In this document: one piece after another, positions 29,874 to 31,675 of the stretch
Position numbering within the stretch: the first letter of the stretch is position 1
How the letters are laid out: each line of letters opens with the position of its first letter
Assembly: GCA_018303205.1 (NCBI GenBank)
Contig: JAGVYP010000038.1
Coordinates: 1 to 37,255, forward strand
DNA length: 37,255 nt
DNA from: Candidatus Woesearchaeota archaeon
GTDB lineage: Archaea > Nanobdellota > Nanobdellia > Woesearchaeales > JAGWAF01
Direction of reading: 5' to 3'
Made by a program: the position numbers and the translations under genes
The notes under the pieces: model-generated
Database searches by the model: none
Seen by the model: only the letters and a program-made list of their open reading frames with translations
Told to the model about the DNA's origin: nothing

Positions 29874-30740
29874 ATGAACTTCCAAAACCTTCCACCCATA
29901 GAAAAAGAAGATTTTTACTTAGACTATGCTATCAAACAAGCCCATGAACAGGCTGAACGATTACGAACAAGCTTGGGTGGCAATGACAAGTTTAGAAAAT
30001 CAGAAAGAATAGAACTCATCAAAGTAGAAACTTTGGGAAAAGTCCTCCAGGAAAAATGCGATGCTATCCTCACGTCTTTTCCAGACCTTGAAAGCCTTCC
30101 TCATTTCTATCTCGAACGAAGAAGCTATTATGGACGAATAAACTCCTTTCTGAAAAAAAACAAAGAAGCATTCACCTACTTAGAACGCTGCAGAAAAATC
30201 ATGAAAGGATTCCCCCATATCAAAACTTCACTCAAAACAGTATGCATCATTGGATTTCCCAACGTAGGAAAAACAACTTTATTTTACAAACTTACCGGAA
30301 GCAAACCAGAGATTCAATCGTACGCATTTACGACAAAAGGAATCAATGTAGGATATATTTCAAAAACTGATTTCGCGAAATCTACGAGCAATGAGTCAAC
30401 TTCCAAAGACACGAAAAAATCAAAAAAAGAAGATACCATACAGGTTTTAGATACTCCCGGAACACTTAACAGGTTTGACAAAATGAATATGATTGAAAAA
30501 CAATCTTACTTAGCACAAAAAGAAGTTGCTGACATGCTTATCTATGTCTTTGACCTTACCGAAAGCTCTTACCCTCTCGAAGACCAAGAAAAGTTATACC
30601 AAGAAACAAAAAAAATAGAAAAACCACTCTTAGTCTACTTAAGCAAAACAGATTTGCTTTCCACAGAAAACATAAAAAAATTCAAACTCAAACACTCTTC
30701 TCTTCAAGAAATAAAAGATGCGTTATTAAAAGACGTGTAG
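29874..30740 (+). CDS. NOG1-like GTPase
   Basis: 288 aa. The N-terminal helical region (1-120, with YGRINSFLKK and FTYLERCRKIMKGFP) is followed by the G domain: G1 GFPNVGKT (127-134), G2 around YAFTTKGINVGYI, G3 LDTPGTLNRFDKMN and G4 SKTD. The N-terminal bundle and the GIN.GYI motif match archaeal NOG1 rather than Obg. NOG1 proteins help assemble the large ribosomal subunit. A Lys/Ser-rich insertion of about 25 residues lies before G3. The gene is predicted leaderless (TTTATAAA at 29845-29852). The gap 29645-29873 is T-rich with nothing else seen. Confidence 0.88.
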   Translation: MNFQNLPPIEKEDFYLDYAIKQAHEQAERLRTSLGGNDKFRKSERIELIKVETLGKVLQEKCDAILTSFPDLESLPHFYLERRSYYGRINSFLKKNKEAFTYLERCRKIMKGFPHIKTSLKTVCIIGFPNVGKTTLFYKLTGSKPEIQSYAFTTKGINVGYISKTDFAKSTSNESTSKDTKKSKKEDTIQVLDTPGTLNRFDKMNMIEKQSYLAQKEVADMLIYVFDLTESSYPLEDQEKLYQETKKIEKPLLVYLSKTDLLSTENIKKFKLKHSSLQEIKDALLKDV

Positions 30741-30833
30741 TGAAAAAGCTATCATTTCTATTTTTTCTTTTTTTTATGTTTTTTCAATATAAAAAACCAG
30801 CCATGAGATCTTCATGGATAGTTCTTATGGTGA

Positions 30834-30944
30834 GGCGAAGGTGGGATTTCCAGTCTTAGGGGTGTCAAGACACTTGAACCCACACAGAGCTGGAAACTCT
30901 ACCAGAGTTTCAATCTGGCGCATTTACCGTTCTGCCACTTCGCC
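30834..30944 (-). tRNA. Class II tRNA-like gene with T-loop insertion; apparent anticodon GAA
   Basis: Reading the minus strand: acceptor GGCGAAG/CTTCGCC, D arm GCA/TGC around AACGGTAA, and anticodon stem CCAGA/TCTGG with loop TTGAAAC. A long variable arm AGAG/CTCT and T stem GTGGG/CCCAC complete the fold. The T loop is TTCAA...AT, interrupted by about 26 nt that hold a GTCTT/AAGAC hairpin, like a noncanonical archaeal intron, although a standard bulge-helix-bulge is not clear. The long variable arm and D arm suit tRNA-Leu (or Ser), but the loop reads GAA (Phe), and base 73 would be U. A TATA box (30962-30971) about 26 bp upstream supports transcription. It could be a real intron-bearing tRNA or a decayed one. 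Confidence 0.7.
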
Positions 30945-30991
30945 ATCAAGACAAGCGTAAGTTTTATATAATCATTATAACTTATAACTTT

Positions 30992-31023
30992 GAGCTGGAA
31001 ACTCTACCAGAATTTTGATCTGG
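30992..31023 (-). repeat. Duplicated anticodon and variable arm of the adjacent tRNA
   Basis: 32 bp matching 30887-30918 at 29 positions. It repeats the anticodon arm and most of the variable arm. All three differences fall in the anticodon loop (TTGAAAC becomes TCAAAAT), while both stems are unchanged. It lies 48 bp upstream of the tRNA 5' end. It may be a scar of integration at the tRNA or a remnant of a second tRNA. The rest of 31024-31165 is AT-rich and shows nothing. Confidence 0.65.
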
Positions 31024-31165
31024 TATTTTTTCTTTTTTATCAGAAATATACTTTCTTATTCTTCATATACTTTTACAAGAAAAAATTGTTAATTTTTCGA
31101 AAATATTTTAGTTTTTCAATCTCTTTTTGAAAGAATTACATTTTTTTATTCTTCCTAAGATGATT

Positions 31166-31675
31166 TCACTTCAAACAAAACAGAGGACCTTTTTCTCTTC
31201 TCCTTCCATAAAGATACAAGGTTATTCCAATGATCACATAAGCCAAAATCATAGAACTCACAGAAGGAACAACTCTTTCAATATAAACACTCAAGACAAA
31301 ATCAATACGCTCAGCATTTTGCATTTGAGGAATAAGAGAATCCAAAGTCTTTACAAGAGTTTCTTTTGAAAAAAACAATAGCAACAAACCAAAAGCACCG
31401 GGAATTAACGTTAAGCCTCCTAAACGCTTGCACATCTTTGCAGGATCTCTCTTAGATAAACGATATGTACTATATACCCCGACAAAAATGAGAGGGGTAG
31501 AAATCGCTAAAATAATGAACGAAGAGAACACAAAATTTCCTGCTTCCTCTGGCAAAGCAACTAAAAACAAGAAAGGAATAATACCTGTTAACCCTGTAAG
31601 ATACGCAATTCTTCCAAGTACATACAAAAAGACAAGCTTAGAAGCTTTCTTAGCAACATGTTTAACTCTTTTCAT
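31166..31675 (-). CDS. Four-helix membrane protein of unknown function
   Basis: 169 aa, not recognised. A basic N-terminus (MKRVKHVAKKASK) is followed by hydrophobic helices at about 14-40, 47-70, 86-104 and 139-157, and a basic tail (YGRRREK). Positive ends suggest both termini are cytoplasmic. A roughly 35-residue loop between helices 3 and 4 has no cysteine or metal motif. A TATA-like TATATTTATATATC near 31727-31740 on the minus strand lies upstream. The gene is divergent from the EndoQ gene. Confidence 0.65.
   Translation of the reverse strand: MKRVKHVAKKASKLVFLYVLGRIAYLTGLTGIIPFLFLVALPEEAGNFVFSSFIILAISTPLIFVGVYSTYRLSKRDPAKMCKRLGGLTLIPGAFGLLLLFFSKETLVKTLDSLIPQMQNAERIDFVLSVYIERVVPSVSSMILAYVIIGITLYLYGRRREKGPLFCLK

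Follow-up and report, generated by a model that had tools for sequence, protein, structure and literature searches.

A serine-type tRNA with a phenylalanine anticodon and a divergent antisense partner form a candidate RNA-RNA toxin-antitoxin-like module in a Woesearchaeota archaeon

The analysed window, a stretch of 37,255 nucleotides from contig JAGVYP010000038.1 of a Candidatus Woesearchaeota archaeon, contains a locus that is probably a two-RNA, RNA-RNA toxin-antitoxin-like module whose toxin is a miscoding serine-type tRNA. The proposed toxin, a class-II tRNA gene, lies on the minus strand at 30834..30944; the proposed antitoxin, a predicted antisense RNA of about 46 nt, would be transcribed from the plus strand at 30992..31037, its ends predicted from TATA spacing and a T-run. 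We incline, with some reserve, to the view that such loci represent a new class of toxin-antitoxin or antiviral module, in which a seryl-tRNA with an anticodon for a hydrophobic residue is paired with a divergent antisense antitoxin, and that the class is widespread in Woesearchaeota-type DPANN archaea. For the transcription, serine charging, toxicity, neutralisation and biological role of the tRNA/antisense pair we propose the following. The tRNA, with an anticodon for a hydrophobic codon (Phe in the window), would lose a T-loop intron by bulge-helix-bulge (BHB) splicing and then be charged by SerRS whatever its anticodon, because SerRS does not use the anticodon (PMC9976931). The seryl-tRNA would put serine at hydrophobic codons (Phe codons for the window gene) and poison the proteome; serine tRNAs with foreign anticodons do mistranslate and are toxic (PMC6827378). 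The short divergent antisense RNA, whose sequence complements its own tRNA over the anticodon and variable arms, and in other members over the D arm too, would block tRNA folding, charging or decoding by pairing, and the two RNAs would act together as an addiction or defence module.

A preliminary description of the locus had reported a tRNA in which the acceptor, D, anticodon and T stems all pair. All are present on the minus strand: the acceptor stem is GGCGAAG/CTTCGCC, the D stem has 3 bp, the anticodon stem is CCAGA/TCTGG and the T stem, in a split T arm, is GTGGG/CCCAC, with a long variable arm, TAGAGTTTCCAGCTCTGT, at 30884..30901. Also correctly read were the anticodon GAA (30909..30911, in the loop TTGAAAC), which would read Phe codons, and U73 (30833), both on the same strand. 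The fold scores z = -4.3 against shuffled sequences. Neither a second intron in the anticodon loop nor a shift of the anticodon to UGA is compatible with U33, the 5-bp stem and the loops of relatives, such as CTGATGC. ARAGORN finds no tRNA in the window, and the Rfam tRNA model gives the gene 25.8 bits (E = 0.004) against a cut-off of 29; in both cases the T-loop insertion is responsible. Models R1 and R2 match the gene with 116 bits and 74.7 bits.

Normal archaeal tRNA-Phe has A73 and a class-I body, and the window tRNA has neither, being class II with U73. Serine features are found in its long variable arm and in the G30-C40 pair of its anticodon stem. Bacterial and archaeal SerRS use both G30-C40 and the discriminator G73 as identity elements for serine (PMC9976931), and it is G73 that the window gene lacks. 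Serine charging is less sure for this gene and its close paralog L025 because of U73; the same base is found in the true tRNA-Ser(GCU) of genome G007.

The T loop had been described as split by about 26 nt with its own hairpin, and this corresponds to a predicted intron of 26 nt between positions 59 and 60 (30847..30872, minus strand), with the inner helix GTCTT/AAGAC. Its structure is a canonical BHB: after the T stem come the bulge AA^T, the 4-bp helix TTCA/TGGA, the bulge AG^T and the inner helix (GTGGG-TTCA-AG^T-GTCTT..AAGAC-TGGA-AA^T-CCCAC), giving the archaeal arrangement in which a 4-bp helix is flanked by a 3-nt bulge at each exon-intron border. Predicted splicing would remove the 26 nt and leave the T loop TTCAAGT. 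The intron proposed in the preliminary description is thus upheld by its structure, but its position is not novel: T-loop insertions of like kind occur in ordinary tRNAs of this genome too (tRNA-Phe L021 as well as L024, L026 and L028), so the T-loop intron is a habit of the lineage and not special to the window gene. Some of these ordinary tRNAs, tRNA-Phe L021 among them, carry a second intron in the anticodon loop. Because ordinary tRNAs have T-loop BHB introns, standard finders miss many tRNA genes of the lineage.

The window gene belongs to a family. Its own genome (1.42 Mb, 85% complete) holds four more such genes (L025, L034, L027 and L063), all with GAA and with an upstream copy or like layout; L034, unlike the window gene, has G73. 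A covariance model built from five sequences found many more members across the order; members were taken from the top of the model rankings, which are not a full census and whose E-values are rough. In an exact-pattern scan of GTDB r220, 10 of 11 matches fell in records named Woesearchaeota, Nanoarchaeia or Nanoarchaeota. The possibility of a virus-borne family was set aside after one exact-pattern scan of viral contigs found no member, which is weak evidence. Among 33 diverse relatives, 98.6% of the stem pairs are standard, a level reached by 0 of 500 shuffles, with compensatory changes in every helix, that of the BHB included, and changes on both sides in 17 of 24 pairs. All 33 have a 7-bp acceptor and a 5-bp T stem; the central BHB helix is 98.5% paired, and its U-G pairs mark the strand that carries the cloverleaf as the RNA strand. 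Since pairing and compensatory changes are kept throughout, the family members are, on comparative evidence, tRNA genes under selection with a conserved BHB intron. The outcome of a pseudogene, which the preliminary description had allowed for, is ruled out for the window tRNA by this covariation, even though the same genome also has a normal tRNA-Phe(GAA).

Their anticodons follow a rule. Ninety-two deduplicated loci from 52 genomes bear an upstream copy, and 88 of them have anticodons for Phe (33), Leu (29), Ile (22) or Val (4). The anticodons seen in the family (GAA, GAU, CAG, UAA, CAA, UAG, UAU, GAC, GAG, AAG and AAC) vary between and within genomes, with A35 present in 79 of 83 copy-bearing relatives. 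U33 and 7-nt anticodon loops are kept while the sequence of the anticodon stem changes freely. Detection bias from the seed sequences does not account for A35: a model with the anticodon masked again returned NAN anticodons, plus genuine tRNA-Ser genes. The body, for its part, points to serine, with G73 in 88 of the 92 copy-bearing loci, G-C at pair 30-40 in 70 of 91 members, and a D arm that, set against tRNAs of the same clade, lies nearer to true tRNA-Ser than to tRNA-Leu in 77 of 92 loci (nearer to Leu in 13), a comparison whose leave-one-out controls were right in 14/14 and 5/5 cases. The altered identity suggested for the window gene, a Phe anticodon set in a class-II body of serine type, is therefore no isolated oddity and recurs across the family. 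A count of tRNA-Phe genes elsewhere in the genome had been proposed as a check; as far as a census of Rfam and model matches goes, which is incomplete, a normal class-I tRNA-Phe(GAA) is there (L021). The complete genome G013 likewise holds normal Phe, Ile and Leu tRNAs. Because such normal tRNAs exist, the family genes are not needed for decoding. Together they appear to make up a large, archaeal and apparently undescribed family of serine-type tRNAs with the wrong decoding triplet.

Absent from the preliminary description was the key feature of the locus, an upstream partial copy of the tRNA together with a divergent promoter. The copy (30992..31023, minus strand; G000:C66:30992-31023, E = 3e-6) repeats 32 nt of the anticodon and variable arms with 91% identity, 47 nt upstream of the tRNA, and its complement would form the body of the antisense RNA. 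The predicted duplex of this RNA with the window tRNA has an energy of -55 kcal/mol. Across loci the copies are specific: each matches its own tRNA better than it matches the tRNAs of other loci, and in 69 of 72 loci it is the cognate duplex that comes top (mean -59.5 vs -28.6 kcal/mol). Coverage falls on the anticodon arm, the variable arm or the D arm, and acceptor and T arms are hardly ever copied. In most relatives of group 1 the copy ends 33-60 nt upstream of the tRNA, and in group 2 about 200-245 nt upstream; calling used a score cut-off of 28 in a range of 300 nt, and short group-2 copies therefore count as absent. Group 2 loci (L045, L046, L051, L052, L058 and L070) have about 150-200 nt of AT-rich sequence between the antisense promoter and the tRNA.

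Differences between tRNA and copy are directed, running G to A and T to C, the changes that leave G-U pairs with the antisense RNA. In strict aligned cores of 37 deduplicated loci, G-U-compatible changes outnumber opposite ones by 132 to 16 (p = 7e-24), and in a larger set of loci by 330 to 64. T>C changes exceed C>T changes by 44 to 10 in the same 37 loci, which disfavours AT drift. Strand-biased mutation in leftward transcription could add to this direction, and would itself need that transcription. A role for the copy in the sense direction, as a leader mimic of the anticodon arm, was rejected, since some copies break the sense hairpin and keep antisense G-U pairing; in L039, four of four changes are compatible with such pairing. 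Conserved complementarity to the cognate toxin RNA, the mark of an antisense gene, is thus found at the level of sequence.

The divergent antisense promoter has a TATA box, TTTATATA, at 30963..30970 on the plus strand, identified from the sequence and from family spacing, and possibly shared with the tRNA. The preliminary description had placed a TATA box at the right distance from the tRNA; the box is there, but the distance is 18 nt, against 23-24 nt at ordinary tRNAs of the same genome. In 72 loci it is the spacing to the copy that is held constant, at 20.4 +/- 3.5 nt (within 17-23 nt in 67 of 72), whereas the spacing to the tRNA is 16.3 +/- 7.6 nt with a range of 6 to 46 nt. The former resembles the TATA-tRNA spacing of the ordinary tRNAs, and in some members the box, at 6 nt, is too close to serve the tRNA. 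A simple pattern count finds BRE-like sequence more often on the leftward side, 24 to 6. At the other end of the predicted antisense RNA, a T-run following a hairpin (31025..31038, plus strand) is its likely terminus; 59 of the 72 relatives have an A-tract left of the copy, and the best 15-nt window beyond the copy on the antisense strand has a median T fraction of 0.8 against a background of 0.32. Given the match of copy to tRNA, the G-U-directed changes, the fixed TATA spacing and the T-run, each locus appears to couple its miscoding tRNA to a divergently transcribed antisense RNA that covers the anticodon. Downstream of the tRNA (30790-30825, minus strand), a hairpin followed by a T-run is common to the window and the paralog L025 (CTGGTCATGAG..CTCATGGCCAG-TTTTTTT in the latter), and is likely the terminator of the tRNA transcript.

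No upstream copy was detected in 22 ordinary tRNAs of the same genome. Among genes returned by the same model, a copy accompanies 1 of 12 true tRNA-Ser genes and 81 of 115 genes with other anticodons (Fisher p = 4e-5). The antisense partner therefore goes with the wrong anticodon and not with the tRNA type, true tRNA-Ser genes being largely without it. The single case of a copy with a Ser anticodon, an apparent exception, is L160 (G272:C11), a tRNA-Ser(GCU) with a copy of the anticodon and variable arms that ends 22 nt before the tRNA.

The module is patchily distributed, and an empty site was found. In the window, 425 bp holding the module separate the gene for a NOG1-like GTPase (29874-30740, plus strand) from a convergent gene for a membrane-like protein (31166-31675). 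In the same-family relative G003 the orthologs of these two genes (60% identical, and 27% identical with E = 1e-12, respectively) share an 11-bp overlap that leaves no tRNA between them, and the models detect no family member at the orthologous place in G002 or G003. The NOG1-like GTPase of the window is 288 aa long, compared with 315-347 aa in relatives, and a middle stretch seems to be missing. Pfam assigns the neighbouring genes housekeeping functions (proteasome, Rpp14/Pop5, NOG1-like GTPase, PEP-utiliser domain) and identifies no mobile-element gene among the window neighbours. Elsewhere, family members form tandem clusters, three in L077 and several in L044/L072; in G115:C38 (L072) and G084:C14 (L077) the tandem members have different anticodons and lie in short stretches without long ORFs.

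A third group consists of class-II tRNAs with NAN anticodons (GAG, AAG, GAA, GAU and CAA) and without the antisense copy; its members include L233 (G000:C27:33053-33165, plus strand), L016 (1215-1327, minus strand; G000:C2), L247, L243, L244, L202, L238 and L251. These share a conserved intron core, CTTTCGGTTTTACCG, and in several a motif resembling TTTCTCGTCGATAGATATAT, which may be an operator, is conserved upstream. Not every such tRNA, then, has an antisense RNA, and toxicity, if real, would have to be dealt with in another way in this group.

Several other readings of these loci must be weighed against a toxin-antitoxin-like module. The tRNAs might be useful to the cell, for example through stress-induced serine substitution, with the antisense RNA as a control switch. 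Such regulated adaptive mistranslation would suit a family so widespread in the order, would account equally well for the antisense pairing and the anticodon rule, and would agree with the upstream motif of the third group, which suggests another form of control; but the patchy distribution, the empty site, the tandem arrays and the varying anticodons look more like a module gained and lost, and we consider this explanation unlikely, if a serious one. More doubtful still is a tRNA-like RNA that takes no part in translation and is never aminoacylated, serving instead as regulator, decoy or processing substrate and silenced by the antisense RNA. U73 in the window copy speaks for it, but an RNA that does not decode would need no NUN-reading anticodon, and the family keeps A35, U33 and 7-nt loops over a varying anticodon stem along with the serine identity elements G73 and G30-C40.

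Partial tRNA copies do arise at integration sites, and the window copy is imperfect, as would be expected if it were a functionless decayed duplicate or an integration remnant. This is very improbable in view of the cognate specificity in many unrelated loci, the fixed place of the copy beside the TATA box and A-tract, and the direction of change; a remnant should also involve random arms and strands, which are not seen, and should not spare ordinary tRNAs and nearly all true Ser tRNAs. Least credible is a genuine extra or recoded tRNA-Phe for normal decoding. The GAA anticodon and the complete, spliceable cloverleaf would fit one, but normal tRNAs already fill this role both here and in G013, the anticodons differ among members and genomes, and the gene is missing in same-family relatives.

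Of known systems, the bacterial allo-tRNAs (Mukai et al. 2017) resemble the window family in combining a class-II body and serine identity with a variety of non-serine anticodons, and work in E. coli showed that they insert serine at the codons they decode (PMC7609411). Their acceptor domain has 12 bp (8/4 or 9/3), their anticodons span 35 of 64 codons and no antisense partner is described for them (PMC7609411), whereas the present family is archaeal, has 7/5 geometry in all 33 members compared, almost only NAN anticodons, a T-loop BHB intron and a dedicated antisense gene. CreTA shares with the proposed module a toxin and an antitoxin that are both RNA, an occurrence in archaea as well as bacteria and an attack on tRNA-dependent decoding; there the CreT mini-ORF sequesters rare tRNAs and CreA, the antitoxin, needs CRISPR-Cas (PMC8501985). 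In the present module a tRNA takes the part of the proposed toxin, and its partner is a plain antisense RNA, derived from a partial tRNA copy in place of a CRISPR-repeat-like sequence; no CRISPR family reaches the Rfam gathering score in the window. In type I toxin-antitoxin systems, an antisense RNA acts against the mRNA of a small toxic protein (reviewed e.g. in PMC6563280). The window module is like these in having a short antisense RNA with a neighbouring promoter, predicted to pair with its cognate toxin transcript, but it differs in aiming at a non-coding tRNA, and its antisense gene stands apart as a partial copy and does not overlap the target on the opposite strand. Noncanonical BHB introns in archaeal tRNAs are established (tRNAscan-SE 2.0 paper, PMC8450103), and the T-loop intron of the window tRNA is of that kind; the unusual features are the antisense partner and the combination of this anticodon with a serine-type body. 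A search of the open-access literature found no miscoding tRNA toxins and no dedicated antisense genes of tRNA genes.

If the proposal is true, a complete miscoding tRNA would be a kind of toxin not described before, and there would be tRNA genes with an antisense RNA gene dedicated to each. The rule of a serine-type body reading a NUN codon is a sharp prediction, serine for hydrophobic residues being among the most damaging of substitutions. Puzzling annotations of Phe, Leu and Ile tRNAs in DPANN genomes would be explained, and caution would be called for in reading decoding capacity or code changes from anticodons alone. The module would then offer a directly testable case of programmed mistranslation in archaea about whose defence biology little is known.
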